Shown in pieces: positions 1 to 26,178 of a stretch of 28,007 bases of DNA. This DNA comes from a virus. Positions within the stretch are counted from its first letter, which is position 1. The number at the start of each line of letters is the position of its first letter. The stretch spans positions 1-28,007 of the IMG/VR virus record IMGVR_UViG_3300043429_000833; one strand, given 5' to 3'. The notes below the pieces were generated by a model. It ran no database searches, was not told where the DNA came from, and saw only the letters and a list, made by a program, of their open reading frames with translations. The translations under genes were made by a program, and so were the position numbers.

Positions 1-3000
1 ATCACCACGGTACAAGATCAAGTCACCGGTAGCAAAGTATGTATTTGCATCCGTAATTGCAATTGTATCGTTAGTATTGGATACACCAGTATTAGAATTA
101 ATTGCTACAGAGAAGTAAGCGGCTACATTTGTTGTTGGCGCATAACCTGTTGGTGTGCTATATTGAAACTCTTTAAAGTCATTTCGATCGACACGGCTGC
201 TAACTACACCTTCAGGTGTGGTCTGCTGCATAAGGGTCCAATATTTATCGTCAATAAGCTCTCCATCTTCCTTATTCAAGAACTTAGCGTAGACCTTGAT
301 ATCGGTCTGATAAGGCTTATAGGCCGACAGATATACTTGCAAGTCTTCCGCATCTTGTCCTTCTGCAAGGACCACTCTCTTTGAAATATACTTTGCGGCA
401 GTGTTGCCACCCGTAGGTAAATCTTCATTTGCAAGCGATGCATTGTTGCTTACATTGTTTTCAATAACTAGCATGTCAGATTTAATATCATCAAATACTG
501 GAGTAACCCTATCTGTATCTGTAGATACGTTGATAGATACCTGCATGGTCTTGCCTGTACCATTTTGTAACTCTATAGATCTAGACTTTACGTTTCGATC
601 CTTGTCAGTAAAGAATGTCTCAATGTCTGAACCTACAGTTGTGAATGAGCTATCAAGTGCAGAATCATATCCCTTAATCTTGATCTGAGCTGTAGAACCA
701 TTCGGCACAATGTAAGAAAACTGCGGAATGACTACGCTATAGTCAACACTATCGACTGATACCAAATTAGCTCGAGCTCTTGATGTAGCACCAATTAGAA
801 GAGCATTGGCCACTACTGCTGTTGTAAAGTTAGAGATTGCATTTGCGGTGCTTTGCTCTAGATGTATTAGATTGGAGTCAGAATTCCAGCGAAGCAAAGA
901 ACCTGTAAGTTGTCCGTTGGCCTTTAGAACACCAATAGAACCATTGGATTCTCCAAATGACAACGGTGCATTGAGTGTAATCTGATTAGCATTAGGTATG
1001 CCTGTAATTTGTCTAATATCAGTTAACTGTCCATTTTCAGAAGAAATATACACCAATGAATTTGTAGCAAACAACAATTGGGTATTTGTTCCAGTTGCAA
1101 CAGCATTAATTGTATTGCTGGTAGTATTTCCAATAACGTTAGCAGAGACACCAACTACACCATTAGAGACGTAGACGGTCTCACCCGGTAGGAATGTTCC
1201 CAAGAAGTTATTAGCTGTCATGTACTCAGTGTTGCTATTGGTGTAAACAATTGTTCCTGAGGACTTGATATATCTGTGGCGATTGATAGCAAACTTAATA
1301 TCTTCTTTCTGGAAAGGTGTCCAGACTCTATTTGTAGAAGAGGTGAAAAGCACACCTGTAGAATTATTCACAAATATAGGAGTATTTGTAGTAATATCAG
1401 TTCCACTGAGCTCTGCACACCAGATATTATAACCATCGTTGCTTCCGATTGGCATCACGATAAAGCAATATTCATCACCAGACTTCAAAAATACTGGCGT
1501 ATCAAATGTAAATCTGGTTGGAGAAGTTGCATCACTGCTTGTGTTAATTTCATTTGCATTGAGCACCTTTCTACCAAAAGGAACAATCTTGAGAGTTGGA
1601 AAGCCATTTTCCATTTCTCTGATTTGAACTTCAACACCCAAGTCAGCATGAGCAGTGCTGAAGTAAAGATCAATGCTATCAATGTAAACGCCGCTATTCT
1701 CTCCACCATCTGCAATCAAGAAAGACTGTGCAATAGGATCTCTAGCAGGTGCCCTGGGCGTTGGTGGTCGTATAACAGGAGGAGTTACTGGTCTTGGTGC
1801 TGGAATTGACACACTGCTTGTCATAGTAGAGACAAGCCTTGAAGATATAGTTGTATTTGTTACTGTAGTTGAATTAATAGCTATCTGTGGAGTTCTAGTA
1901 GCTAGCTTATGTCTGGCCTTAGTGATAGCAATATTGCTAGCAATATAAGTTGATGCGGCCTGAGTAGTGATAGAGTCTTCTTGAGTGACAATAGATGCAA
2001 CGTCAACAAGCCTGAATACTCTTTCACCAACCTTGAATGTTTGTGCAGGTATAGCAAAAGTACCATATACAAAGCCTGCAGAATCACTGCGAAGCTCGTC
2101 ACCTAAATCACCTGTTGCAACATATGAAGAGTCAGTAGGCGTGCAGTGTTGCGATACTGCTTGTCCATCGAAGAATGCGTACACAATTGTATTAGGCTTG
2201 AGTCCGGAAGCCTTAAACTTAATTAGCTTTGATCTAATGAACTGCTGGATTGATACATCCTGGACTACTTCACCATAGTCAAACGTGTTGTTCAGCGTGA
2301 TTGCGCTGAAGTCAAGCTCATTTCTTCCTGTAGTAGTAGATGTTGTAGCAAAAACGTCTCTAGTAGTTGTCGTTGTAATACCAGACGCTTGAGTACCAGT
2401 TGTAGTAGATGCACTTCTTACACTTTGCACTGTTGAAGTGCTAATGATTCTTTCTGGTGAAATAATGCTTGGGAGAGCATTTGTAAGATCAGTAATACCG
2501 GATAAGTCAATGCTTCCAACTATGTCCGGATTTCTATCAATGTCAGGTTGAGCATCACCACCTGGAGTCAGATCAATATTACCATTCCATGTATAGATAA
2601 TGTTCTCTACACAGTTTCTTGTCTTCGATGCAAATAATTGTTCGATATAAGGAGTGGTATTAGATTCTAAATGGATAAGGCTACCTGTCTTAACTACATT
2701 AGAACTCAATGCAGCATCATAGTCTAGATCAATATATGTCCTAGTAATGGTCGGAGCTAGCTCTTGCATCTTGATGTCAATAGCAGCCTTGTATTCTGGA
2801 TTCTTTGTATCAGAAACAGCAAAGCCCTTAAATGGATCCACAATGAAACCATTCTTAAATCTTTCTAGACCTGCATCATCCTTAATGATTAGTGTCTTTG
2901 CTGATGTCTCAAGCAATGATAGTGAGGTGTAGTATTCTAGTCTTGCTACTTTCTTATCAATTACACCAATATCCTTCATTGTATAGCGGCGATACTGCTG

Positions 3001-5901
3001 TAGATCTAGAGATACACCATATTCTGGGCGGTTAAAGATTCTGACGTCATTTTGTGACAAAGAAGGATAAGGAGGAACAGTTGCAGTACCCAGGGTCATT
3101 GCCCCATCAAGGTCTCTGGGAGAGACTGGGCTAATTGAAGGTGCACCCTCTGTTATATTAATCTTTCCTTCAGAAGATAATGACACCTTATCTTTTCTGC
3201 CGAGATAGTAACTAAATGCAGTTTCCATGCTTTCATCAGCAACAGGAGTGTAGGCTCCATAGATTGGATCAATTAGAGGTGTAACCGTTGAGGAAGGATT
3301 GATAGAAGCGCCTGCAGCAGTGGTGCTGCTGGTTGCTGTATTGGAAGAGTATTGTCTAAAGTCAAGAGAGTCTCTAAGATCGTATACTGATCCTGTCTCT
3401 GATGTATACAGCGGTATATCAGCTGTTTGAATGGCTGAAGTATTGGCGGTATTTACATCATCAATTGGATATGACATTACAGAGAAATAACCGACACCAG
3501 AAGATGTATCAATTGTGAAATGATCAAGTTCAATAGTCAGAATGTCATTTGCACCGATTGTGTGAGATGACCCTGTCTTGATCTGTATAGAAGACAATCC
3601 ATAATGTGATGCTCTTTGTCCACTATCAAGAACAAATTGCGAAGTTTTATTTGAATCTGATGTTGTACCTGTTGTGCCCTGATACACATTTCTGATCTTA
3701 TGTACATCAGGAAGTCCAAGAGACCATGGTCCTCTGGTAGTATTTGGGTGTGTATTGGCCTGGATCTTTACAAAGCGATTCTTGTTAATTTGCTTTGAAG
3801 CATGCACGGCACCTTCACGCAAGGTGTCAAATGCCACATACCCTGTAAAGCCTGCAGCAACGGTTGTACCAATATTGATTGTTGCACTAGTACCATCGGA
3901 AGCTACATTAATATAAGCTGCATCATCTTTCTGGAAACTGATGGGAACTCCAGCAGGGAATCTGCGTGCAATGGATGCAGCTGTATTGGTGAATGAAGAG
4001 GAAGAGTTAATTGTTAATGCTTTGGTGTTTGCAATAGAAGTTACTCTTCGAATGTTCGTATTTGATACTGTACCATCAGAAAAGATGATATAGTCCCCAA
4101 CAGCAACAGTAGAAGTAAATGCAGATGCAGAAGTAATAAGCGTGCAACCACTGGTAACACCTACAGTAGCACCAAGTGAAGCTCCATTCACAGAAGTATT
4201 GGGTACTACAATAAATCTTGATTCATTATCTTCAGATAGAGATCCGCGTGGGAAGATAGTATCCGTGCCACCTGGGTGTGAAGTTGGCGCACTGAGAGTA
4301 GCAACACCATCAGTACCAAATGATAGATCAGTTGCCGTTCTATAGATAAACGACATTACAGCCGTATTAACAGCCTTTACAGCAGAACTACCCAAGCTAA
4401 ACACGAGGTCTGGTGAACCAGTTTCTCTTAATACAGCAAGCCCGCCGTCAAGAACTGCATCTGCATATGCAGGAACACTGCTTGCATTAAGTGCATAAAT
4501 CGACCTTACATCTTCAAATGCTAGTCCTGCTTCATTAATGACTATATCAAATAGATATAACTTATAAACAGCATCTGGTGTACCAGGAATTCCACTGTAA
4601 TATTCAATGCCGCGAACCTTTGCAGTACCTATCTGATTACCAGGTGGTTGCTTCAGCGGCAGTGCACCTACAACAGGGCTGTAGTCTCCGCTTGTGAGAG
4701 TAGTTCCTGCTGCGCTACGCAATGAAACTTCATCTAAATTTCTGAAATCCAGAGGACCTGCAACTTCATTTACAAATACATAGTTGCCATAGTTTGCAGT
4801 AACAATCTGATTGGGGAAGTACACAGTATCCGTGCCCTTCCTCATTGTTACTCTATTCTTGTCTGCAAATTCTACTCTATAGCCGTATACGTAGCCCAGA
4901 CCCTTATCAACTTCTAGTACTAGATTATTTGCATTTGTAGTATTAGAAGTAACAGTGAGTTCAAATGGGTCAATAATATAGTTACCAGACTCTTCGTATG
5001 TACGCTTGGCCATCTCGGCGCCAATCTTAGCATACTGTGGATTAGTAAAGATGGTAACTGGATTGCCATCCTTAAAATTGATAATTGAGAAGAAGTCGGT
5101 TGTAGTTGATGTGTCTTCTGTAGTTTTTACTGCTAGATTTGCAATAAGCTTAAGACGATTTGCACCAGGAGCATTGAAGTTAGTCGAACCTAGTGCGTTG
5201 TCATATAGAGATGCATCGGCATCGGCAGTAACAATCTGTTCTGTCATTACAAAGCCAACTGACAAATTGTCAGGTGCAGTATTGTACTTGGAAACTATGA
5301 GGGTCTGAGGATCTACTCTTACAAAGAAGCCATTCTTAAAAATTGTACCTTCGGATATAGACACTGCATAGCCATTTCCTACTGGATCAAATCCAGATGT
5401 GGCTACACTCACTGATTGTATTAGTGTGTTTTCTGACGTTCTAATTGTCAGCGCTTCACCTGCGTCAAATGTCTTTTGCTGAACACCATTTGCATATGTG
5501 GCTGAATTAAGATATCTTACAAAGATTGTATTGAGGTCTGGGTCGTTTGTCTCAAAGCCTACAACACCATTGACGATAACTGCTTGCAAGTTTGCCGCTG
5601 ATACTACCTTATTGCCAATGAAGTCCGTAACAGTATATGCGGCTCCATTGGCATTAGTATCTTGCAGTTTTACGTACTGGTATTGTGAGTCAAAGTTTAT
5701 TGTGCACCCCTCGACAATCGACCCATCTTTAAAGATGTGGTTGCCAAACTTCTCTAATTGATCCTGCAGAATAGTCTGCATTTGAGTAAGCTCGCGAGCT
5801 TGTACAGCAACGGCGGGCTTAAACAAAATTCTATAAAAGTTAGCATTTGCGTTATAGTCGTCAAAGTATGGAGCGGCATTAAAGCTAGTCTCTAAAGTCA
5901 T
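1..5901 (-). CDS. Giant DUF4815-type tail/baseplate protein (C-terminus beyond window)
   Basis: The minus frame is open from an ATG at 5901 to base 1, at least 1967 residues, so the gene is cut by the window edge. An AGAGGAT ribosome-binding site lies about 8 bases before the ATG. The N-terminus has the layout of the DUF4815 phage tail family: an opening like SFNAAPYFDDYN, then FKPAVAVQARELTQMQTIL and FGNHIFKDGSIV (residues about 6-60). A short Pro/Arg-rich linker near residues 1366-1386 is followed by RDPIAQSF, a signature of long phage tail proteins that precedes a beta-sandwich part. The rest is Thr/Ser/Asn/Gly-rich and beta-like, with no visible membrane segment or catalytic motif. By position after gp8 it stands where T4 has genes 9 and 10, so it may form the baseplate periphery or anchor fibres; that is inference. 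In related phages the family is usually named only virion structural protein. Confidence 0.8.
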   Translation of the reverse strand, partial: MTLETSFNAAPYFDDYNANANFYRILFKPAVAVQARELTQMQTILQDQLEKFGNHIFKDGSIVEGCTINFDSQYQYVKLQDTNANGAAYTVTDFIGNKVVSAANLQAVIVNGVVGFETNDPDLNTIFVRYLNSATYANGVQQKTFDAGEALTIRTSENTLIQSVSVATSGFDPVGNGYAVSISEGTIFKNGFFVRVDPQTLIVSKYNTAPDNLSVGFVMTEQIVTADADASLYDNALGSTNFNAPGANRLKLIANLAVKTTEDTSTTTDFFSIINFKDGNPVTIFTNPQYAKIGAEMAKRTYEESGNYIIDPFELTVTSNTTNANNLVLEVDKGLGYVYGYRVEFADKNRVTMRKGTDTVYFPNQIVTANYGNYVFVNEVAGPLDFRNLDEVSLRSAAGTTLTSGDYSPVVGALPLKQPPGNQIGTAKVRGIEYYSGIPGTPDAVYKLYLFDIVINEAGLAFEDVRSIYALNASSVPAYADAVLDGGLAVLRETGSPDLVFSLGSSAVKAVNTAVMSFIYRTATDLSFGTDGVATLSAPTSHPGGTDTIFPRGSLSEDNESRFIVVPNTSVNGASLGATVGVTSGCTLITSASAFTSTVAVGDYIIFSDGTVSNTNIRRVTSIANTKALTINSSSSFTNTAASIARRFPAGVPISFQKDDAAYINVASDGTSATINIGTTVAAGFTGYVAFDTLREGAVHASKQINKNRFVKIQANTHPNTTRGPWSLGLPDVHKIRNVYQGTTGTTSDSNKTSQFVLDSGQRASHYGLSSIQIKTGSSHTIGANDILTIELDHFTIDTSSGVGYFSVMSYPIDDVNTANTSAIQTADIPLYTSETGSVYDLRDSLDFRQYSSNTATSSTTAAGASINPSSTVTPLIDPIYGAYTPVADESMETAFSYYLGRKDKVSLSSEGKINITEGAPSISPVSPRDLDGAMTLGTATVPPYPSLSQNDVRIFNRPEYGVSLDLQQYRRYTMKDIGVIDKKVARLEYYTSLSLLETSAKTLIIKDDAGLERFKNGFIVDPFKGFAVSDTKNPEYKAAIDIKMQELAPTITRTYIDLDYDAALSSNVVKTGSLIHLESNTTPYIEQLFASKTRNCVENIIYTWNGNIDLTPGGDAQPDIDRNPDIVGSIDLSGITDLTNALPSIISPERIISTSTVQSVRSASTTTGTQASGITTTTTRDVFATTSTTTGRNELDFSAITLNNTFDYGEVVQDVSIQQFIRSKLIKFKASGLKPNTIVYAFFDGQAVSQHCTPTDSSYVATGDLGDELRSDSAGFVYGTFAIPAQTFKVGERVFRLVDVASIVTQEDSITTQAASTYIASNIAITKARHKLATRTPQIAINSTTVTNTTISSRLVSTMTSSVSIPAPRPVTPPVIRPPTPRAPARDPIAQSFLIADGGENSGVYIDSIDLYFSTAHADLGVEVQIREMENGFPTLKIVPFGRKVLNANEINTSSDATSPTRFTFDTPVFLKSGDEYCFIVMPIGSNDGYNIWCAELSGTDITTNTPIFVNNSTGVLFTSSTNRVWTPFQKEDIKFAINRHRYIKSSGTIVYTNSNTEYMTANNFLGTFLPGETVYVSNGVVGVSANVIGNTTSNTINAVATGTNTQLLFATNSLVYISSENGQLTDIRQITGIPNANQITLNAPLSFGESNGSIGVLKANGQLTGSLLRWNSDSNLIHLEQSTANAISNFTTAVVANALLIGATSRARANLVSVDSVDYSVVIPQFSYIVPNGSTAQIKIKGYDSALDSSFTTVGSDIETFFTDKDRNVKSRSIELQNGTGKTMQVSINVSTDTDRVTPVFDDIKSDMLVIENNVSNNASLANEDLPTGGNTAAKYISKRVVLAEGQDAEDLQVYLSAYKPYQTDIKVYAKFLNKEDGELIDDKYWTLMQQTTPEGVVSSRVDRNDFKEFQYSTPTGYAPTTNVAAYFSVAINSNTGVSNTNDTIAITDANTYFATGDLILYRGD

Positions 5902-5927
5902 ACGGTCGATCCTCTGGTTCCAATTTT

Positions 5928-8900
5928 TTAGAACTTTATTACCAATTTAATTTCTTCAGTAGATCCTTGACTTCTATCAATGACTGTATTTGAAGATTCA
6001 GTGTATATAATCTTACCAGACTCTCTTATAAGATCCGGCAGTGTGATTCCTATGCATACCGCAGTAGCACCTGAGTTAGCGCCAGTTAGCTGATTGCTGC
6101 CAGTGGAAAACTGATTAAGCTTAGACATGTCGTATGTAATAAGCACAGAGTACACATTGGCAATGTCAGCATTTGCGGATATGCTATTTATCCTATTCCC
6201 TACAGAGAACTGTTGTGTGTTTGAAACCCCTGTAAGTTTCACATATGTAGAGTTTGCAAACACAGCAGTGCCTACAGCTCCAGTTGTTCCATTGGTAATT
6301 ACGTCACCAATCAAGAACGGATTTATAGAAACTGGGGTCAAAGCAAGATCAAGATCTGAAGTGCCACTCAATACTCTTGCTTTAGCATTAGTAGTACTTT
6401 GAGTTATTACTTCAAAATTTGTAAACGCGGAAGTATTAGACCCAAGGGTCAACCTTCCAGTTTGATTAAATTTAGAACCAAAAGATGTAGTAACATTTCT
6501 TGTTCCGGATTTAATAGAAATAGCATTGACCACAGCCTTTGCTTCTGTATTAGGTGATGTCAGCGCCAATCCATTTGCAAATCTTCCAACTATATTTGAT
6601 ACCTGAATTGTAGTGTTGTTACCACCTACAACTACAGCTGTTGCACCAGTATTTTCTTGACTAATTATGTCACCGGTCGTAAATCTTAATATTGAAGCAA
6701 CAGAAACGTTTGCCGACGCACCGGAAGCATATCCTTCAATCTTTAGTGTATTGTTTGTAGATTGAATAAAACTACCTAGCGTACCATTGAGTGTGATCGA
6801 TGTACTATTTCCAAATACAACCACTCCAGCAGCATTTGTAGATTGTTGTACTACTACTTCTCCATTGGTCCATGTGCCAGATGTATTCAGCAAAGTCAGA
6901 TTTACAACATTAAAGTCCTGTAGAGTCAGTGCAGCATTTGCAAAATATGGATCTTTAATTATACCTGTCTTTCTGAATGAAACATCAGTCGGCAAGAAAT
7001 AAGACTCATTAACTAGTGTATCAAACTTAGTAGTTATGGCCGCATATCTAGCGCCAAGTTCTACTACAGGATCTGCACCGTGACCTAAGAGCGGAGATAT
7101 AGAAGCTGTTACAGAAGCACCATTACCAAAATCAGTATTGGCATATATCTCTATAGTAGCTTCTGTATAGTTGTTACCTGGATTTATAATGGTTATACCA
7201 GATATTGCGTTAGCAGTTCCGTTAGACGTATCAACTTCTGCTACTGCTAATGCTCCCTGTCCATCACCTGTTATCCTTACTGTAGGTCCAATTTCATAAT
7301 CCATTGTTCCGGATATCAAATTAACAACATCACTTAAAATTGCGTTTCCTGTAGGTGTATCTGACGTATCAGTAAACGAGACTGGGAATCCAATGGAGAA
7401 TTGACCATTAGGATTTGTTACTGTAACGCTTGGTGCCTGAATAACTTCATCAATATTAGCACGCTGCAATGAAGTCAAACCCCTGACTTTTTGACCAGTG
7501 GTCCAAGAACCTTGCGCACCCGATATCATTAGAACAGAGTTGTTAGTAAATGATACAGTTCCGTTAGCACCAAGAGCAGTATTGGATGCATCGACCGCTT
7601 GAACCCTTTCACCAATAACAAACGATACCCCACCAAGAGTAAGGTTTGAGATAGAAAACTGTCTAAAGTCAATCGTAGAATTTGAAATTACACCAGATGC
7701 AGAGGAAACACTTATTGTAAGTGGTTCTGTTGCTGTCGACAGCTTAAATGTATTTGCACCGGATTCGGTAGTGATAAACGGAATATCAACCACTATCGAT
7801 GTTGAGTTGGAAAAAGAAACTCTTCTTATGTTATTGTTAGCATTCTGGCCAACTCTAATATAGCTATTAATTGGAAAATCGGTAGCAAAATCCGTTGTTC
7901 CCGTGGAAGAATTTGCAGCTATAATATTTCGAGGCAATATTCTACCTGTGGCAGTTTGACCTTGAATAGAGTGTCCCGTTTCAGTAGGACCTTTAGTCAG
8001 AGCTATTCTATTTGCAGAAACTGTATTTGCAGTTAGAGAGAAAGCAACGTGTGTATCATTTGCAAACTGAATATAGTATTGTGAACCACCTACAAGCCCG
8101 CCAATTGTTGTATTACCAGTGGCTACAGAATATCTTACAATGTCGTTTTGTCTTAGGAATATTGCGGAGGCTAATTCAACAACGTTGTTACTTCCAGCAC
8201 CAGTTCCTGCGGTAACAGCTGTATTAGCATTGAATGTTTGGGCAACAGGTGAAGAAACGGTAACTGTTGGCTCGGTAAGATAACCACTTCCATTGCTAGA
8301 TATTAGAACAGCTGTTATTTTACCAGATGAATTGGCCGAAGCATTTGCAACACCGCCGGCGCCTGTATTGCTTCCAATAGTGATTGTAGCATTTGCTGTG
8401 TATCCCGAGCCCGATGTAAGGAGCAATGTGCTGAACAGAGACGAGTTTGTACTAATATTTACTTTCTTGTCTGCGCTGCTTGAGATGAGCGCACCAGTAT
8501 CACTAGTATCTCTTATAGGGAGTCTTGCACCAAACTCTACACTGCTTATGTATCGTGATACTTTGAGTGTGCTATTATTTGCAGCTAAAACTAACCCCTC
8601 AACACCAGAATCTGTCTGCTTTACATTTGCACCAAAGCTAAAGTAACCAACAGTATTGGATGTTGCAATTGTATCTACAGTCTGTTTTATTATCTCACCG
8701 ACCGATCCGCCGTCCGTTACAAATGTAGTATTAGCTAAATCAAATCTAGTGTATACGTCTATGTCTGCTACTGTTACAGTTTTGGCTACACCATTATAAC
8801 CGGTTATCTCTCTAATTTGTCCTGCGCCATATCCAGACTTTAGATAAATTGATGATCTATTATAGTAACCATTTACAGACGATGAAGTATTGCTGATTTT

Positions 8901-14072: not shown

Positions 14073-14765
14073 TTAGTCGTTCAGTCTGATCTGTGTGCCA
14101 TTAACATATACAACACCTGCTGCTGTAATGGTAATAGGTCCACCGCCCGTGTTGATTGTTATGGAGCTTTCAGCATTAACTATAAAGTTTTTACACTTGA
14201 CTCTAAAGTCGCCATCAATAGACATTTCAATATTTTTGCCACTTACAGACCAATCATTGGCAAGTACATCGGTCTTTGTTCCATTAACCGTAGTCACCAA
14301 AGCACCATCAATATTGCCATTTACATCACCTTTGACTGATGATGTAGATGAACCATTGATGCTTTCAAGCTTGTCCTTTTCGGTATGCAGCTGTCTTACA
14401 CCGCCGACGCCATCAATTAAATCTCCACCAATACCAATAGTTTTATCAGTACCGATGGCTTCATATGATGACTTGTCAACATTAAAATTATATGTGCCAC
14501 CAATTTTAATGTCTGCATGCGAATCAACAGTCATTGCAAAGGTGTTCTTGAAATAATTATATACTTTTTCAACCACTGTCTGCACCCAGCGTCCGGACTT
14601 TTCAATTTCCACATATGTACCGGTAGTGTGTGAAACTTTTAAGCTTTCATTACCAGGAGCATCATTAATATGAAATTCATGGCCGCTTCTAGTTACTGTA
14701 GCTTGATTATATGGGTATGTGGTTGAGAAATTAGATTCTGGGTGGCGTCTATTTGTATCTGACAT
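14073..14765 (-). CDS. Tail spike needle (gp5 C-terminal / VgrG-type beta-helix)
   Basis: The 230-residue protein has no T4 gene of its own; it resembles the C-terminal needle part of T4 gp5 and the VgrG tip. Residues 28-52 (GHEFHINDAPGNE, then HTTGTYVEIEKSG) are the typical segment just before the needle. From about residue 76 on, short alternating beta repeats rich in Asp, Gly and Thr (DIKIGG, IDGDFRVKC, SITINTGGGPITITAAG) indicate a trimeric triple-stranded beta-helix. It ends VYVNGTQIRLND. An AGAAGG ribosome-binding site lies 9 bases before the ATG, and the gp5 stop is 3 bases upstream. It probably forms the membrane-piercing tip on the gp5 OB-fold trimer. No PAAR-type tip gene is visible in the window. 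Confidence 0.85.
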   Translation of the reverse strand: MSDTNRRHPESNFSTTYPYNQATVTRSGHEFHINDAPGNESLKVSHTTGTYVEIEKSGRWVQTVVEKVYNYFKNTFAMTVDSHADIKIGGTYNFNVDKSSYEAIGTDKTIGIGGDLIDGVGGVRQLHTEKDKLESINGSSTSSVKGDVNGNIDGALVTTVNGTKTDVLANDWSVSGKNIEMSIDGDFRVKCKNFIVNAESSITINTGGGPITITAAGVVYVNGTQIRLND

Positions 14766-14768
14766 AAA

Positions 14769-16304
14769 TTATAGCCTTCTGAACGCATTTTCCATTCTTG
14801 CTCTTCTAGTTGCAAGAACTGTTTGCGCTTCTGTAAAACGATTCATTGATTGTTGTATTGCTCCAGAACTTGGTAGTATTGAAGCTGAAATATTAGAATT
14901 AAATACTCCAGTAACTGTAGAATATAGAGACGGCAATAGTTTAGCAGCTAGTAATAAGTTCTGTGCTGGGCTATTGGTACCAACAGATCTCAATAATGCC
15001 GATGCTTGACCTAAGCCGGTCGCCTGTGTTAATATGCTTTGTAGGCTCGATGTGTTTAAATTACCAGTACGCACAGCTTTGGTTAATTCACCCTGTAGAT
15101 ATTTAGATACATCATAGCTGCTGTGTTGTGCAGCAGAGATGTAATTTGGCTGACCGTTACGAGCTGTAAAAACTGGATCACCCTCGCCGCTAGAATCAGT
15201 CCAACGAATATAGCCTGGATATGGATCGCTATCATATGGATAGTATTCTTGTACGTATCCTACTGGGGGACTAATAACTACCGATACTGGAGCAAATGAA
15301 GCCGTAATACCACGTGACAATATATCATCCGATTCTTTTCCAATTACAGCTCGAATATTATTTGAAGCATTGCCAACTTTAGCAGCAGCAGTTTTAATCT
15401 GTGATACTGATTTAGCCAATGCTTGTGTGCCAGATGAAATAGAACTCAAAGCAGCAGGCGCTGCACAGAGTCCGCCAGATTGCAATGCATTAAAGGCGTC
15501 GGTAAAATTATCAAGCGCACCTGCTGCACTATCAATAGCACTCAATACGGTATTTATTCCTAACTGATCTATTATGGATAGTAATGTTCTAGTAACTGCA
15601 TCAGTTAGCATGTTAATAAAGCCAGAAGATATAGAGCCAAGATTAATAGAAAGACTTATTTGAGTAGCACCTGTTTGAAGACACGGTAAAGCTGATAAAG
15701 AACTTGATGGATCAATACTCTGAAGTATTTCTAAAATATCTGTTTGATTGGCATCAGCTGACGCTGTTGTAGGAAGTGTTGCAAATTGCATGCCTTCTTC
15801 TACAGCAGAAGTAATCACAATACCATTGCCCAATTCAATAGCATCAATGTCTGATGCATTTGAGTCTATGGCATCAATTGCAATTCTAGATGGAGCAAGA
15901 CTACTGTATGGATTACTTGTATTATTCTGTGTTGCTCCAGGTATACTACCCAATGCTGTATTGACTGATGGTGCACCGCCCTCAGTCTGTCCAGGTATTG
16001 GTGCTCCAGCACGTCCGACAGTGCCCATGATTAGTGGGTATTGATGATCGTTATCAAGCCAGTTTCCGTATACTCTAGAACCTACTATGAGACCTACAGG
16101 AGCGGTACCAATTCTTCCGCGGGCTGCAGATGTTATGGGTTGCAGTACTTGTGCCCACGGTAGATCTGCATCTGGAATATTAGCAACATCATCGTGTCTA
16201 CCAAATACACGAACTTGTACACGACCGCTTTGGTGCGGATCCATTACATTGACTACTATACCGATCCATGTTTGTACTCGGCTTCCAAAATCTCTTTCAG
16301 TCAT
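14769..16304 (-). CDS. 5: Baseplate hub protein gp5-like, OB-fold, no lysozyme domain
   Basis: Residues 1-100 are the gp5/VgrG OB-fold that caps the gp27 trimer: GRVQVRVFG (27-35), LPWAQVLQP (48-56), VGSRVYGNWLD (74-84) and PLIMGTVG (90-97). The remaining 410 residues are unlike the T4 lysozyme and needle parts. They include an Ala/Ser-rich helical stretch (about 190-330), a Tyr/Pro-rich segment (YYPYDSDPYPGYIRWTD, about 352-370) and a helical C-terminus. I see no lysozyme domain or RNNNPGN-type motif, so this hub protein probably does not cut peptidoglycan, unlike T4 gp5 (575 residues with OB, lysozyme and needle). The needle is encoded by the next gene. The start overlaps the gp27 stop (TGATG), with GAGGAA about 13 bases upstream. 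Confidence 0.85.
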   Translation of the reverse strand: MTERDFGSRVQTWIGIVVNVMDPHQSGRVQVRVFGRHDDVANIPDADLPWAQVLQPITSAARGRIGTAPVGLIVGSRVYGNWLDNDHQYPLIMGTVGRAGAPIPGQTEGGAPSVNTALGSIPGATQNNTSNPYSSLAPSRIAIDAIDSNASDIDAIELGNGIVITSAVEEGMQFATLPTTASADANQTDILEILQSIDPSSSLSALPCLQTGATQISLSINLGSISSGFINMLTDAVTRTLLSIIDQLGINTVLSAIDSAAGALDNFTDAFNALQSGGLCAAPAALSSISSGTQALAKSVSQIKTAAAKVGNASNNIRAVIGKESDDILSRGITASFAPVSVVISPPVGYVQEYYPYDSDPYPGYIRWTDSSGEGDPVFTARNGQPNYISAAQHSSYDVSKYLQGELTKAVRTGNLNTSSLQSILTQATGLGQASALLRSVGTNSPAQNLLLAAKLLPSLYSTVTGVFNSNISASILPSSGAIQQSMNRFTEAQTVLATRRARMENAFRRL

Positions 16305-19812: not shown

Positions 19813-20417
19813 CCTCATACATATTTCAGCGCATAGCCAAACTAGGTAAGGCTGAAGGAATTGATCAAACTATTCGGCAAAGAGATGCAAGAACTTGGTT
19901 TCGTACCCGAGCATTGGCGATTACATCCGTCAACCGCCAGAAGCTCATGCAAGATCCTGATGCAGATAATCTGGCTAATATAATTGACGAAAATTCCATT
20001 GGGAGCATGTATTCATTTTTCTATAATCCAAAGCATAAGAAAACTCTACCTTACTATGATTTGTTCCCTCTTATATTTGTAATAGGTCTAAAGCCAGACG
20101 GTTTTCTAGGAATTAATCTTCACTATCTACCACCAGTGCTAAGAGCAAAGTTAATGGATCAGTTGTATGCTATTACCAATAATAAGAAATTTGACTCTAC
20201 TACAAAGCTTAAAGTAAGTTATGAGTTATTAAACAAGGCTGCAAGATTTAGATATTTTGCTCCGTGTGTAAAGCATTACTTGTTTGATCATGTACAGTCA
20301 AAATTTTTAAATATAGAACCTTCGTTCTGGGATGTAGCACTCATGCTTCCGACCGAAAAGTTTGTCAAGACAGACAAAGACACTGTGTGGAACAAGTCCA
20401 GGAGTCAAGTAGTCTAA
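19809..20417 (+). CDS. 2: Probable DNA end protector gp2-like protein
   Basis: The 202-residue protein starts with GTG overlapping the gp4 stop (GTGA); AAGGAG at 19792-19797 is a strong ribosome-binding site 11 bases upstream. The central part (FYNPKHKKTLPYYDLFPLIF, then GFLGINLHYLPPVLRAKLMD, and FRYFAPCVKHYLFDHVQSKF) belongs to a family widespread in T4-like aquatic phages and often annotated as DNA end protector gp2. T4 gp2 binds packaged DNA ends and protects them from RecBCD; it is also a head-completion protein. The T4-like adjacency to gp4 supports the name. I see no membrane segment or nuclease motif. The assignment rests on remembered family annotation and synteny, so a different virion role is possible. 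Confidence 0.6.
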   Translation: MTSYIFQRIAKLGKAEGIDQTIRQRDARTWFRTRALAITSVNRQKLMQDPDADNLANIIDENSIGSMYSFFYNPKHKKTLPYYDLFPLIFVIGLKPDGFLGINLHYLPPVLRAKLMDQLYAITNNKKFDSTTKLKVSYELLNKAARFRYFAPCVKHYLFDHVQSKFLNIEPSFWDVALMLPTEKFVKTDKDTVWNKSRSQVV

Positions 20418-21049
20418 TGGCATTCAATATACAAAATTTTACATCTAATGTAAATAGATATGGCGTACTTCAAACAAATAGATATGAAGTTGTATTTTCG
20501 CCACCTGCAGGACTAGCTAGTTCTTTCGGCAGAGATACATCAGAACTACTGACATACCGTGCAGATAGTGTTAAGATGCCAGGAGTTAATTTTGCTAATT
20601 ATGAAACTAGAAGATATGGCGTAGGTAATGTCGTCAAATCTCCTACAAATGTACAATTTTCTGATATTGATATATCTTTTATAGAAGCAGAAAATCAAGA
20701 AGTCTTTGATCTTTTCTATAAGTGGTCCAATTTAATTGTTAACTACGGCGATCCTATCGCTGGAGTTCCTGTTTCAGAAGTCCCTGGATTATTGAGACAA
20801 TTATATGCAACAAATTATAAGGATACTATTGTTTCAAAGATTGTTGAAATAAAAATATTCAACAATAGAGGTACTAATAAATCTGTAGGTAATACTCCGC
20901 CTCCAGTAATACCTACCGGTATAATAGAACTGATAGATGCATTTCCTATCTCAGTAACGGATAATGCTCTGTCTTGGAGTAATAACAATAATCTATTTAA
21001 AGTTAATGTGCAGTTTGCATTTAATCATTGGCGCTTTAAGCGAGCATAG
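20417..21049 (+). CDS. Tail tube-fold protein (gp19/gp54 family)
   Basis: The chosen ATG overlaps the previous stop (TAATG) and follows AGGAG at 20400-20404; an in-frame ATG at 20387 would sit inside the upstream gene and is less likely. The 210-residue product has the tail tube pattern: TNRYEVVFSPP near the N-terminus, then LTYRADSVKMPGVNFANYE, FYKWSNLIVNYG in the middle and SWSNNNNLFKVNVQFAFNHW before the end. T4 gp19 (163), gp48 and gp54 share this fold. Length and position near the tube cap suggest a gp54-like initiator or a second tube protein rather than the main tube subunit, but I cannot decide. The next gene follows after 15 bases with a clear GGAGA site. Confidence 0.7.
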   Translation: MAFNIQNFTSNVNRYGVLQTNRYEVVFSPPAGLASSFGRDTSELLTYRADSVKMPGVNFANYETRRYGVGNVVKSPTNVQFSDIDISFIEAENQEVFDLFYKWSNLIVNYGDPIAGVPVSEVPGLLRQLYATNYKDTIVSKIVEIKIFNNRGTNKSVGNTPPPVIPTGIIELIDAFPISVTDNALSWSNNNNLFKVNVQFAFNHWRFKRA

Positions 21050-21064
21050 TGGAGAACTAATATA

Positions 21065-21772
21065 ATGGCACTACCTAAAGTAAAGCATTCTATTCACGAA
21101 TTCAAAATACCTTCTACCTCAAAGAAGCAAACATTCAGACAATTCTTGGTGAGAGAAGAAAAGATTCTTCTTATGGCCAAGTCATCTGAAGATTCTGCTG
21201 ATATCTTTAGAGCCATGAAGCAAATAGTAAACAACTGCTGTATGGATGATTCGTTTGATATTGATAAGCTTTCTGTATTTGATCTAGAATATCTGTTCCT
21301 AAAGCTACGATCAATATCAGTCAGCAACATTGTGAAGGTATCTTATAGAGATAACGATGATGAAAGGATCTATGATTTCGAAATTGATCTAGATAAGATT
21401 GAAGTAGAATTTCCGGAAAATGTAGAAAAGGTAATTAAGATCACTGATTCCATGGGTATTGTAATGAAGTGGCCTGCTGCATCTATTTTTGATGATAAGG
21501 ACTATTTTAAGACTAATTCTGCATATTATGAACTGATACTAAGATGTATTGATAAGATCTATGATGGCGAAGACATCTACGAGGCTTCGGATTATTCAAA
21601 TAAGGATGTAGAAGAATTCTTGGATGATTGTAACGTTGCAACACTAGAAAAAATTCAGGCCTTTATGTCTAATACACCCCGACTTTACCATAAGCTTGAA
21701 TACAAGAATTCAAACGGCAAAGATCGTGTCATTGAACTAACGAGTCTGACTGATTTTTTTACATTGGGCTGA
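21065..21772 (+). CDS. 26: Baseplate hub assembly protein gp26-like, zero-frame product
   Basis: The 235-residue zero-frame product resembles the T4 gp26 baseplate hub family (T4 gp26 has 208): LPKVKHSIHEFKIPSTSKKQ, FRAMKQIVNNCC, FDLEYLFLKLRSIS, then an acidic middle and a short helical C-terminus. In T4, gp26, gp51 and gp28 are needed to assemble the hub, and gp26 and gp51 are neighbouring genes, so a chaperone role is likely. GGAGA (21051-21055) lies 9 bases before the ATG. The last codons contain seven T (21754-21760) just before the stop at 21770-21772, where a -1 shift opens a further 61 codons (separate entries). The gp26 family call is firm; the role in tail assembly follows from the family. 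Confidence 0.85.
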   Translation: MALPKVKHSIHEFKIPSTSKKQTFRQFLVREEKILLMAKSSEDSADIFRAMKQIVNNCCMDDSFDIDKLSVFDLEYLFLKLRSISVSNIVKVSYRDNDDERIYDFEIDLDKIEVEFPENVEKVIKITDSMGIVMKWPAASIFDDKDYFKTNSAYYELILRCIDKIYDGEDIYEASDYSNKDVEEFLDDCNVATLEKIQAFMSNTPRLYHKLEYKNSNGKDRVIELTSLTDFFTLG

Positions 21773-21823
21773 ATCACAATACTCTAGAGAACTACTATCA
21801 AATGTTGTTCTCTTTGATTCAGC
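21754..21823 (+). promoter_or_regulatory. Programmed -1 frameshift signal: T7 slippery site plus stem-loop
   Basis: The slippery run T TTT TTT is at 21754-21760 (zero frame gat ttt ttt aca). After a 7-base spacer, GCTGAATCA (21768-21776) pairs perfectly with TGATTCAGC (21815-21823), a 9-bp stem. Above a 9-base bulge against one base, AGAGAAC (21786-21792) pairs with GTTCTCT (21807-21813), closing a 14-base loop. The zero-frame stop lies inside the first stem. The window shared by the two frames is only 16 bases and contains this one slippery heptamer. Spacing and geometry fit known -1 frameshift sites. Pairing is seen directly; its use in the cell is inferred. Confidence 0.8.
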
Positions 21824-21945
21824 ATCACAAGTATTCAATAGCTGAAGTCGAAGACCTTATACCATTTGAACGCGACATCTTTGTACAGATGCTTTTACAA
21901 TTCCTTCAGGAACTTAAAGAGCAGCGCGAAAAAAATGGCAAATAA
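21754..21945 (+). CDS. -1 frame extension of the gp26-like gene (gp51-like part)
   Basis: Slipping back one base after codon 232 (21758-21760) and reading on from 21760 gives 61 residues to a TAA at 21943-21945, for a fusion of 293 residues. The extension reads as real protein: NYYQMLFSLIQHHKYSIAEV, then EDLIPFERDIFVQMLL, a helical pattern like the end of gp26/gp51-type hub assembly proteins in related phages. The frame has no start codon at its 5' end: a TGA at 21751-21753 closes it directly before the T run. An internal ATG at 21802-21804 after AGAGA (21786-21790) could instead start a separate 47-residue protein by reinitiation. The end overlaps the holin start by 11 bases. Confidence 0.8.
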   Translation, partial: FFYIGLNHNTLENYYQMLFSLIQHHKYSIAEVEDLIPFERDIFVQMLLQFLQELKEQREKNGK

Positions 21946-22240
21946 TGTTGAAGAAAATTGGATTAAATCTTATTGGAGGCCAGCTATGGGTTGGCTTTAT
22001 ATGTTGATATGCTTTGTCGACTTTGTTCTTTATCCTGTATTGACCATGGCCATGCCAGTATTTCTACATGCTTTTGGTGTAGAAAATGTTAGCTACATGC
22101 CATGGAGCAGTATTACCTTGACTAATGGTGGTCTCATACACATTTCATTTGGTGCTATTCTAGGCATCACTGCATGGACTCGTGGACTCGAGAAAGTTAG
22201 AAGAAATAGAAGTGTGGATGAAAGAGATAACATAGCATGA
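21935..22240 (+). CDS. Holin-like small membrane protein (3-TM holin family)
   Basis: The preferred ATG at 21935 gives 101 residues; an in-frame ATG 23 codons earlier lies inside the upstream gene and lacks support. Residues 17-48 form one or two hydrophobic segments ([20 protein letters not shown] and following), and 66-82 another ([17 protein letters not shown]), followed by a basic tail KVRRNR (87-92). The WRPAMGW start and the [17 protein letters not shown] ending resemble the three-TM holin family found in marine T4-like phages and gene transfer agents. A holin would form pores in the inner membrane for lysis. It overlaps both neighbours (11 bases upstream, ATGA downstream), so it is made with the tail proteins. 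No endolysin gene is next to it. A virion membrane role cannot be excluded. Confidence 0.7.
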
Positions 22241-25200
22241 AAGAACTACCAAAGCAGCCAAATGAGCAAAAAGTTGGAAGTTCTCGTGCTGCAATAGAGC
22301 GCAATCCTTCTCTTGCCGCTGTTAATAGATTAAAATCTGTCATGAGATCGTTTAAACAAGTCACTAACGATGATGCTATATCTGCGCAAAGATCTAATCT
22401 GTTGCAACAGAGTGGGCAGACTAAAACAGCTGATCTTTTGAGTGGGATGAATATAACATCTGACCAATTGGTCATTGGCGCTGAGCAACAAAATAAACTT
22501 CTTAGAGATATTATTAAACTGTTTGATACGTCTAGCAGTAATACTGGTGTTCCAGATTTTGATCTGGGCGGCCGCCGCAGAAGGGATGCCAGATCTTCTG
22601 GTCAGCGTCGCAATCGTAGTGCACTAAGAAGATTCAGTCCTCGCTTCATCAGAAGAGATGCTCGTAGAATCCAGAGAGCTGTTAGTGGAAAAATAGGAAC
22701 ACTCAGGCGGCATATAACAACATTGACCGCACCTCGTGCTGCAGCACCAGGCCTGTCGTTAGCGGCATCAACACCAAGACCACCAGTAGCACCTGAAGCG
22801 CCAAGAGTACCGGCAAGACCACCAGTAGCACCTGAAGTACAAGCAAGACAAGTAGCACCTGAAGTACAAGCAAGACCACCAGTAGCACCTGAAGTACAAG
22901 CAAGACCAGTAGCACCTGAAGCGCCAAGAGTACCGGCAAGACCACCAGTAGCACCTGAAGTACAAGCAAGACAAGTAGCACCTGAAGTACAAGCAAGACC
23001 ACCAGTAGCACCTGAAGTACCAAGAGTACCTGAAGTACCAAGAGTACCGGCAAGACCACCAGTAGCACCTGAAGTACAAGCAAGACAAGTAGCACCTGAA
23101 GTACAAGCAAGACCACCAGTAGCACCTGAAGTACCAAGAGTACCTGAAGTACCAAGAGTACCTGCAAGACCACCAGTAGCACCTGAAGTACAAGCAAGAC
23201 AAGTAGCACCTGAAGCGCCAAGAGTACCGGCAAGACCACCAGTAGCACCTGAAGTACAAGCAAGACAAGTAGCACCTGAAGTACAAGCAAGACCACCAGT
23301 AGCACCTGAAGTACCAAGAGTACCTGAAGTACCAAGAGTACCTGAAGTACAAGCAAGACCTGTAGTAGCACCTGAAGTACCAAGAGTACCTGAAGTACCA
23401 AGAGTACCTGAAGTACCAAGAGTACCTGAAGTACCAAGAGTACCTGAAGTACCAAGAGTACCTGAAGTACAAGCAAGACCAGTAGCAGAAGCAACAAGAC
23501 CAGTAGCACCAGAGATACCAAGAGCACCAGTAGCACCTGAAGTACCAAGAGCACCAGTAGCACCTGAAGTACCAAGAGTACCTGAAGTACCGGCAAGACC
23601 AGATGCACAAAGAGTAACAGCACCGTCAGTAGAATCTTCTGCAACGCCTAGACAAACTGGAAGAGGACTCACAGCATCAAGATTGCAAGCAGCTGGATTA
23701 GGTGCAATATTCACTGCAATTGATGGGCTTATGCTTGTTACTGAATTGGATCAGATTGAGTACGAATACTCAACAAACCAGATCAATCAAGAAGAATATA
23801 AGAAAAAATACAGCGCTGCTTTTGGTTCTTTTCTAGGATCCACAGCAGGAGCTGCTGCATTGGGTGCAATCGGAGTTGCAATCGGTGCACCGATGTTTGG
23901 TATCGGATCCCTTGTATTAGGAACCATAGGTGGTGTTGTTGGTTCTTTTGCAGGATCACAAGTTGGAGCATGGATAGGTGAAACGGTTGCATCCAGCGTA
24001 CTAAACGATAGTCCTCCTAGAGCTCCTAGTACTAGGGATATGACAACACGTGATCAAGAAGAAATAAGAAATTTACTAGCAGATCAACAATTCAGAAGCT
24101 CTGTTGATCCAAACATTGTAGCAGTGCTAGAGATTATTTCTGATGAATCTCAAATTAATCTGAGAAATAGAACAAGTGCACGTGGTGCCAAAAATATTCT
24201 CAATAATCTTGTACAAGAAAATCAAGCAGCATTTGCACAAGCTTATAGAAGAAGAGAACAACAACCTTCAGCAGCTACACCAGTACCTGCAACACCAGTA
24301 ACACCAGTACCTGCAACACCAGTAACACCAGTACCTGCAACACCAGCAACACCAGTTATACCACCAGTACCTGCAACACCAGCAGTAGCACAGCAGATAC
24401 AACCAATAACTCAACAAGATAATGAAGTTATAAGAACTCCTGGTGAAAGTACACGTGATTATAATCGCAGAGTTAGAGAAGATCAACGAAGAAGATTGGC
24501 TGTTACTAGTTCAATTGTTCAGCCGTCATCACCTACACCAGCTTCTTCAGAAGTGTCTGCTGCTACTCCAGTTGCAACAGAAAGTACTAGACCAAGAACA
24601 ATAGCTGATGCAGAACGAGTATGGCCAACAGGTCATGTAGAAGATCTCAGAGGCCTGGTTCGTAGCCGACTGAACATGGCCAGACAGCCTGAGCGCTTTG
24701 AAGAAGTTATGGAAGCCATGATTGGACTTCTCCCTAATGGATTAGCAAGAAGTAGTTTTCTTAATGAAAGCTTGCTTAGGGATTATCTGAGAGCCAACCC
24801 TGGCAAACGCATTGAAGCAAATAGCTTAATGGATAAAGCAGGCCAAGCAATAATTCAGGGCGGGCAAGAAACACAAGAATTGCTTAATAATGTACCAACC
24901 CCAGATAATACTAGATCTGAACTAGAAACTCGCTTGTCAGCATCACTGCTTGATGACGAACAAGGCCCAGCAAAAGATGCTATTGCTGTGGGTAAAAACT
25001 CTGCTATAGGTATCGATGATAGTGATGCACGCACACATTCAAGCGATCTGCCTTATCCAGAAAACCTAATTGACATGTTGTCTAGAACCGAATTCAATGA
25101 ATTGGCTATTGAGGCGGAAGATATTATATTTGATGGTGAAGTAAATGTTATAAGAGAAGATGCACCAACATTTGGTGCAGCCCCAACACAGCAGCCATTG

Positions 25201-26178
25201 CCATCTACTAATACTAATGATTCATCATACGCTACACCTATTTCCTCTAGTACTTCAAGTTCAACATCAGCATCGACATCAGCAAATCTTGCATCGACCC
25301 CGCCAACAACAGCCATGGCCACACCAAGCACATCTACTGCTGGTGCGCCAGCATCAATGCCAAGCGCTACGCCAGTGGCTGGGGAGATGGCAATGCCTTC
25401 TCTTTCTACAACCACTGCTATGCCTACTGCAGCTGCTTCTTCTGGTTCATCTTCAGAAAGTACTTCTAGTCAAGGACAAATAACAGAAGTTGTTCAAGCA
25501 GGTGCAGGTTTTACAGTGGTTCGTTATTCTGATGGCCGTGTTGAAAGAAGAACAGGTGCTAGAAACTGGCGAAACAATAACCCAGGTAACATAGAATTTG
25601 GTGATTTTTCTAGACGATTTGGTGCCATTGGCACTGATGGTAGATTTGCAATCTTCCCGTCTTATCAAGCAGGAAAAGCAGCAAAGGAAGCATTAATTTT
25701 TGAAGGCAGAAATTATCGTGACCTCAATATAGGACAAGCAATAACACGATACGCCCCGCCATCAGAAAACAATACAGCTGCATATATTAACTCGGTAGTA
25801 CAAGCCACTGGTGCAACACCTAGCACACCAATGCAATCTTTGACTTCTGCTCAGCGTACAAGCATGTTAAATGCTATGGAGCGTGTAGAAGGATTTAGAG
25901 TCGGAAGAGTTGAGGTATTACAACAACCTTCGACAGCTACAGCTGCAGCTATTCCAACTGCTCCTTCGGTCCCAGCGGCTTCCGATGGTCTAGCTCTCAA
26001 TACAGCTGGAACGGAAGCAGCAGTCAGTGACCAAGCACGTTTAAGAAATAGTGGCGCCGCACCTTCTGTAATTGTAACTCCTCCCAATGTCAATGCTCCA
26101 GCTTCCAATATACCACAATCTAGAACAGCAATGGGTGAAGTACCGTTAAATAAAAGATTAGAAGCACAGGTATTGTAA
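22237..26178 (+). CDS. Large tail protein: Pro-rich repeat, glycine zipper, C-terminal RNNNPGN domain
   Basis: The 1313-residue protein is not assignable to a T4 gene. In order: a helical N-terminus (about 1-105, with [15 protein letters not shown]); a strongly basic stretch (113-163, many Arg); a Pro/Val/Glu/Arg tandem repeat (181-458); a glycine-zipper hydrophobic region (about 529-588) able to form two membrane or pore helices; an [11 protein letters not shown] repeat (about 679-718); a charged helical part; a Ser/Thr/Ala-rich stretch (about 995-1080); and a folded C-terminal domain (about 1090-1215) with [14 protein letters not shown] and [23 protein letters not shown] domains are common in phage virion proteins thought to act on or bind peptidoglycan; no enzyme activity is shown. 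It starts within the holin stop (ATGA). It may be a tail interior, tape-measure-like or cell-wall-acting protein. Assignment is open. Confidence 0.6.
22777..23610 (+). repeat. Tandem repeat coding for a Pro/Val/Glu/Arg-rich rod
   Basis: About 834 bases consist of nested 15-18 base units. The commonest encode VPEVPR (gtacctgaagtaccaaga) and APEVQAR; about 20 APEV/APEA/APEI units are present. A higher-order block [19 protein letters not shown] plus VPRVPEV-type units is repeated several times nearly identically. The reading frame is kept throughout. The residues used are almost only Ala, Pro, Val, Glu, Gln and Arg, with alternating charges, so an extended polyproline-like rod is likely. Near identity at DNA level shows recent expansion, and length should vary among relatives. 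All three minus-strand frames are also open here because the repeat lacks stops; those are artefacts. Confidence 0.95.
24271..24390 (+). repeat. Short Pro/Thr/Ala repeat in the same tail gene
   Basis: A 24-base unit, ccagtacctgcaacaccagt plus aaca, recurs at least twice in succession with further partial copies. It encodes TPVPATPV-type units (residues about 679-718) and acts as a second proline-rich linker between the hydrophobic region and the downstream charged segment. It is distinct in codons and residues from the larger upstream repeat. Confidence 0.8.

Follow-up and report, generated by a model that had tools for sequence, protein, structure and literature searches.

Does the gp26-like gene of an uncultured phage end at its own stop codon, with a second small gene behind it in the -1 frame, or are the two frames parts of one gene that is read in two ways? 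The question arises at positions 21065-21945 (+ strand) of virus record IMGVR_UViG_3300043429_000833, a phage fragment of 28,007 bases that was analysed in full and is referred to here as the window. An earlier note on this DNA had proposed a programmed -1 frameshift, similar to that of lambda G/GT, in a gp26/gp51 gene. This proposal is supported by a slip site kept at every counted locus, by codon bias, by covariation in a downstream stem, and by the alignment with T4 gp51, and the comparative sequence evidence for programmed -1 frameshifting is strong. Two forms of a tail assembly chaperone very probably (with a probability of roughly 0.93) arise from this gene by -1 slippage, namely a short form in the zero frame and a long form that ends in the -1 frame.

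The short form (TAC-N) is a protein of 235 aa encoded at 21065-21772. It matches Pfam T4_baseplate (PF12322) at E 2e-53, with 181.8 bits relative to a curated cut-off of 24.5, and phrog_150 at 5.7e-57. Its coding sequence ends GAT TTT TTT ACA TTG GGC TGA, with the stop at 21770-21772. In this phase, the seven T residues at 21754-21760 read T_TTT_TTT and have the form X_XXY_YYZ. The -1 frame is closed immediately upstream by a TGA at 21751-21753, and slippage would thus have to occur within the 16 bases between these two stops. The run of seven T occurs only once on the + strand of the window, and a single run of seven A is present at 21929. After the slip site, the -1 reading consists of FF and 61 further codons (21761-21945, with a TAA stop at 21943-21945). 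This extension would supply the C-terminal part (TAC-C) of the long form. It hits PHROG family 634, 'baseplate hub assembly catalyst' (2.7e-22), and the C-terminus of phrog_150 (0.0013), and it aligns with the end of T4 gp51.

A stimulatory structure is looked for 5-9 nt downstream of a slip site, and in the window a 9-bp stem begins after a 7-nt spacer (21761-21767). The arms of this outer stem (21768-21776 and 21815-21823) are perfectly complementary, and they enclose a 7-bp inner stem formed by 21786-21792 and 21807-21813. Folding of the 70 nt downstream of the heptamer gives -21.4 kcal/mol (z -5.06), a stability reached by none of 200 shuffled sequences. A search of 20800-22400 found no terminator-like site, and a terminator in place of the stimulator stem was rejected. 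The first ATG of the -1 frame is at 21802-21804. The positions given in the earlier note for the T run, both stops, the 16-base interval, the stems, the 61-codon -1 frame and this ATG were all correct.

Relatives of the gene were drawn from scans of viral contigs and from named isolates, and 119 loci were put through one junction count. This set includes cyanophages, the KVP40-like V09, Aeh1, phiAS5, Cronobacter phage S13, Caulobacter phage Cr30, DLP6, rhizobial phages, and Xanthomonas phage X1. It excludes two-gene phages and four loci already seen to be without the heptamer (L109, L110, L116, and L128); four more such loci (L137-L140) were found later and are likewise outside the 119. The count holds the window's own record (L105) and one identical contig (L001 and L025 represent a single contig, and their proteins are the same). 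Both were dropped from the merged sets, which retained 103, 90, and 54 loci at 90, 80, and 60% protein identity, respectively.

At all 119 loci, the final part of the zero frame contains T_TTT_TTN in the phase for -1 slippage, with T (67 loci), C (50), or G (2) as its last base. Single fused frames were also looked for, and none was found among the 119. A complete -1 frame of 55-77 residues runs to a stop codon at 116 of these loci, and the other three are contigs that end before the -1 stop is reached (L018, L030, and L045). In two rhizobial phages (L111:3681-3687 and L112:3681-3687) the heptamer is T_TTT_TTG, and the zero frame therefore encodes Phe-Leu instead of Phe-Phe, with the slip phase kept. 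The codon that precedes the Phe pair in the 103 merged loci is GAT in 66, AGT in 19, AAT in 10, TCT in 7, and GCT in 1; it ends in T in every case, as compared to 69.6 cases expected from background usage, and the first Phe is always TTT (103/103 versus 65.5 expected). Other comparable FF/FL pairs within the same genes make T_TTT_TT in only 6 of 99 cases. If the loci were independent, the chance of this codon bias would be 10^-41 (10^-23 for the set of 54), although relatedness inflates such values and they serve as a guide only. The -1 residues directly past the slip site are conserved as well, namely L (77%), H (80%), L (89%), Y (86%), and F (92%) across 88 loci.

RNA folding was assessed for the 66 nt that begin at slip+3, in the set merged at 80% identity (89 of its 90 loci). 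The mean z was -2.74, versus -0.37 in control windows, and z fell below -2 at 59 of the 89 loci compared to 35 of 356 control windows. At 16 of the 89 loci, for instance L011, L069, L084, S13, phiM9, RL38J1, and AG-345, z was above -1 and there was no sign of stable structure in this region. The stem of the window was then considered within a clade set of 45 merged loci that align without gaps and have both TTTTTTT and the window's stop distance (45 of the 48 at that distance). RNAalifold alone predicted no consensus pairs from these 45 sequences, and the 9-bp outer stem was therefore counted directly. It is paired in 91.4% of cells, relative to 88.0 +/- 0.5 when shuffled (0 of 500 shuffles as high), and slid versions of the stem reach at most 36.3%. 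Changes on both sides of a pair were found in 21 cells, versus 5.3 in shuffled alignments (again 0 of 500 as high), and are concentrated at the sixth and seventh pairs. Weaker measures were matched by 20 of 500 shuffles (pairs changed on both sides) and by 17 of 500 (further pair types). Since RNAalifold alone gave no consensus and z is above -1 at 16 of the 89 loci, the 9-bp stem is, on comparative grounds, to be read as a feature of the clade and the heptamer as the general feature. Of the features that the earlier note proposed to follow in relatives, the T run is kept at all 119 counted loci and the outer stem within the clade; individual folds, including that of the inner stem, vary among relatives.

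The homology of the two forms to T4 proteins bears on what the -1 domain is. The Pfam T4_baseplate profile is covered from 1 to 219 of 219 in both T4 gp26 and T4 gp51, and phrog_150 is covered to position 235 of 282 by gp26 and to 280 of 282 by gp51. Additionally, T4 gp51 matches phrog_634 and T4 gp26 has no phrog_634 match. The two T4 proteins match each other by BLASTP at E 2e-6 (one comparison). In the full alignment, the match of T4 gp26 to the short form extends over the final residues and stops at the Phe-Phe site, and T4 gp51, which also matches the short form, continues through the junction into the -1 domain. Single-sequence profile comparison with the short-form alignment gave a probability of 96.0 for T4 gp26 and a non-significant 3.2 for T4 gp51; the relationship of the latter was settled by Pfam and PHROGs. 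As judged by these sequence matches, T4 gp51 is a full-length gp26 paralogue with a C-terminal domain. The earlier description of the locus as a join of a gp26-like and a gp51-like part is therefore accurate for the C-terminal domain, which corresponds to no more than roughly the final fifth of gp51, and not for gp51 as a whole. In one gp51-like gene (L125:3001-3746), an in-frame stop occurs after 120 codons although the tblastn match spans 247 residues, and the frame is disrupted in that record.

These observations can be set against other explanations of the two frames. If the -1 frame were a separate small gene, translated either from an ATG of its own or through coupled initiation where the frames overlap, then no fusion would be made. 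Public annotation does give gp51, or a hypothetical CDS, as a gene of its own in S-PM2, P-SSM2, DLP6, S-RSM4, Bellamy, and phiM9, and the window offers an ATG at 21802. At 17 of 88 loci, the first ATG is reached as early as the sixth codon counted from the slip start. An ATG and the gp26 stop overlap in Vibrio phage K444, in Pseudomonas phage Cygsa01, and in 9 of the 119 heptamer loci (including phiM9, RL38J1, V09, and Cr30); because of these nine, a coupled restart is also possible there. However, the median distance from the slip site to the first -1 ATG is 18 codons, and 1 of the 88 loci has no such ATG, and yet the earlier -1 residues are conserved (in a count of ATG starts, with GTG and TTG not weighed). 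Initiation at 21802 alone, which the earlier note had named as an outcome that would refute its proposal, is disfavoured on the same grounds. A separate gene would also leave the run of seven or six T and the codon bias without explanation, and in T4 gp51 a single protein spans the junction without a break. Therefore, we regard two independently translated genes as improbable.

Slippage could instead take place during transcription, or by both routes. Polymerases can in principle slip on seven T residues, and the run is long enough for this. However, the heptamer is TTTTTTC or TTTTTTG at 52 of the 119 loci, the run always stands in the phase that tandem -1 slippage requires, and a stem conserved within the window's clade is found at the spacing typical of ribosomal frameshifting; a transcriptional origin is thus given only a small chance. 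Homopolymers are also prone to sequencing error, and the long form is encoded in a single frame in T4 gp51, such that a truly single-frame gene might have been broken by an error or by an accidental mutation. This explanation is refuted by the relatives, in which the same frame relation and T run occur at all 119 loci, across many assemblies and isolates and with T, C, or G as the last base, and we consider an error or a decayed gene to be extremely unlikely.

Programmed ribosomal slippage remains by far the most probable reading for the window's gene. A further eight loci have no heptamer. These are from Vibrio phages SUMAE and K444, Pseudomonas phage Cygsa01, and five Ackermannviridae (SeSz-1, phiEa2809, XF4, 3M, and KP6), and the segments concerned, listed by handle and not in the order of these names, are L137:2272-2295, L138:2350-2373, L139:2239-2262, L140:2284-2307, L128:3718-3741, L109:3706-3729, L110:3700-3723, and L116:3286-3309. 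Their zero frames end in ATT, CTT, or GTT followed by TTC or TTT (NTT TTY, where N is not T), and a similar -1 C-terminal domain is kept. The four of them that were placed in a tree of 76 rows form one group (99/94). Single-tRNA slippage on TTY is possible in these phages, as is coupling where an ATG overlaps the stop. The slip site of lambda is G_GGA_AAG, whereas that of the present gene family is T_TTT_TTY.

The predicted fold of the short form (AlphaFold pLDDT 90.2) may be that of a chaperone. The top Foldseek match in the PDB is 2ob9, the HK97 tail assembly chaperone, with a weak E value of 0.84. In VIA-align, the best matches are 3fgx (Z 8.5, rmsd 3.8, 86 residues aligned), 2ob9 (Z 7.6, rmsd 4.0, 84 aligned), 3klu (YqbN; Z 6.8, rmsd 4.3, 86 aligned), and 5ir0 (Z 4.8, rmsd 4.8, 84 aligned). 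All four fall on residues 1-95, and the fifth row drops to Z 2.6. YqbN is a chaperone of the XkdN type. The modelled N-domain thus appears to resemble the HK97 chaperone 2ob9, in a match that is weak taken alone (E 0.84, Z under 8). At the sequence level, T4_baseplate is the sole Pfam family found in more than one of 44 short forms, and, in contrast to lambda and other siphophage chaperones, no tail assembly chaperone family is present among the 25 of 54 Pfam families listed for these 44 proteins. Solved structures were also sought by sequence; the short-form profile returned none, and gp51 returned two weak and unrelated rows. A model of a T4-type gp51 (pLDDT 80.9) has three extra C-terminal helices at 206-248, which suggests that the C-terminal domain of the present phage is likewise helical. 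A structure search with the gp51 model found no chaperone match (best Z 4.7).

By its family matches, the window appears to come from a T4-like phage with a contractile tail. The local gene order is a gp4-like head closure protein, a DNA end protector, a tail tube/gp54-like protein (20414-21049, +; phrog_45 tail tube, 8.8e-35), the gp26-like gene, a small holin-like protein that overlaps the end of the -1 frame (21935-22240, +; Pfam GTA_holin_3TM, 2.5e-05), and a 1313-aa tape-measure/tail-lysin-like protein (22237-26178, +). The last of these, the presumed client of the chaperone, matches phrog_873 endolysin (3.5e-18) and phrog_2276 tail length tape measure (9.5e-15), and both matches are confined to its C-terminal part. 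The same gene contains a long tandem array at 22784-23591 that encodes Pro/Ala/Val/Glu-rich repeats with several periods (9 to 180), and this array also opens long, spurious-looking ORFs on the other strand. Among other phages, Cr30 has an annotated tape measure protein. The chaperone gene is followed in phiAS5, Aeh1, and V09 by proteins whose families have no assigned role, and in P-SSM2 by a protein without a family match. The baseplate genes of the window are on the opposite strand. Two adjacent minus-strand ORFs in the same frame at 14073-16304 match opposite ends of phrog_430, the gp5 hub/tail-lysozyme family, one the back (325-533) and the other the front (16-141). They are parted by a stop codon and one further codon, and may be either a split gp5-like gene or a gene with a read-through stop. 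An open frame of 1982 codons on the minus strand continues past the left end of the window (1-5946).

Under the frameshifting model, the majority of ribosomes would terminate at 21772 and release the 235-residue short form. A minority, aided by the stem beyond the 7-nt spacer, would slip one base back on T_TTT_TTT and continue in the -1 frame to 21945, giving a long form with an extra, putatively helical C-terminal domain. The gene fits the lambda gpG/gpGT scheme in its sequence anatomy, with a short form and a -1 frameshifted long form. In the lambda system, according to a 2016 review, gpG and the rare gpGT bind the tape measure protein, the T part binds the tail tube protein, and neither form is found in the mature virion (PMC5009743). 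By analogy, the shared part of the two present forms would coat the putative tape measure protein of the downstream gene, and the C-terminal domain, being rarer, may recruit tail tube or hub proteins. T4 gp51 is described as needed for assembly and yet absent from the particle (PMC3004832).

The same 2016 review (PMC5009743) states that long-tailed phages, 'except T4', widely conserve the G-T frameshift. The tail assembly chaperones of T4-like phages, with short and long forms, have since been identified (Vladimirov, Gautam and Davidson, Virology 2022, 566:9-15), as the title of that paper and passages citing it indicate. Two later papers that cite this work add that, in place of frameshifting, some T4-like phages carry two chaperone genes, a short one and a longer fused one (PRFect, PMC10885494), and that TAC-N genes of T4-like phages are known to contain poly-T frameshift signals (the Adele paper, PMC12846349). 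The latter also describes, for Pakpunavirus Adele and Vandenendeviridae, a chaperone gene that lies upstream of the tape measure gene and has a poly-T -1 frameshift, where the slip motif is GTTTTT and not T_TTT_TTT. The present gene shares with these T4-like chaperones the predicted short and long forms and the poly-T slip signal, and the two-gene variants found in some phages also recur among its relatives. Vladimirov and colleagues are said to report that the frameshift is kept in several T4-like groups and that genes 26 and 51 are separate in T4. Because frameshifting in T4-like chaperones is already published, the finding is not new in kind, and the window's gene is, from its sequence, very probably a clear further example of the mechanism reported for T4 relatives and not a novel system. 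The earlier idea of a link between the T4 and siphophage systems is thus supported, but it was already in print, as the title of the 2022 paper and passages citing it indicate. What is added here is the breadth of conservation, the covarying stem of the window's clade, which was worked out in the present analysis, and the relatives without the heptamer.

The arrangement of the two parts differs within the T4 group. As the earlier note had it, genes 26 and 51 are separate neighbours in T4, where they are divergent, and the same is true of 44RR2.8t and Proteus phage phiP4-3, whereas the window has one gene with a slip site. V09, Aeh1, phiAS5, and S13, which are Straboviridae by their records, also have one gene with a slip site. 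In the 76-row tree, which is unrooted and leaves the duplication undated, the two-gene gp26 and gp51 sequences each form one group (88/100 and 100/100, respectively), and the single genes make up the rest. The simplest reading of this unrooted tree is that the T4 pair arose by a duplication that replaced the frameshift. A wider proposal is more tentative, and we place it at somewhat less than even odds: one-gene frameshifting would be the older state in the wider T4 group, gp26 and gp51 would have arisen by a duplication that replaced it, and the clade stem, kept by compensatory changes through coding sequence, would set the ratio of short to long form and hence tail assembly.

Overall, the short form matches 622 phage records and the -1 domain matches 551, mostly from cyanophages. 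In the cyanophage and other single-gene records examined, the two parts, where annotated, are listed as separate genes. Reading them as the short form and the -1 extension of one probable chaperone gene would make the labels 'gp26' and 'gp51' readable in hundreds of phage records.
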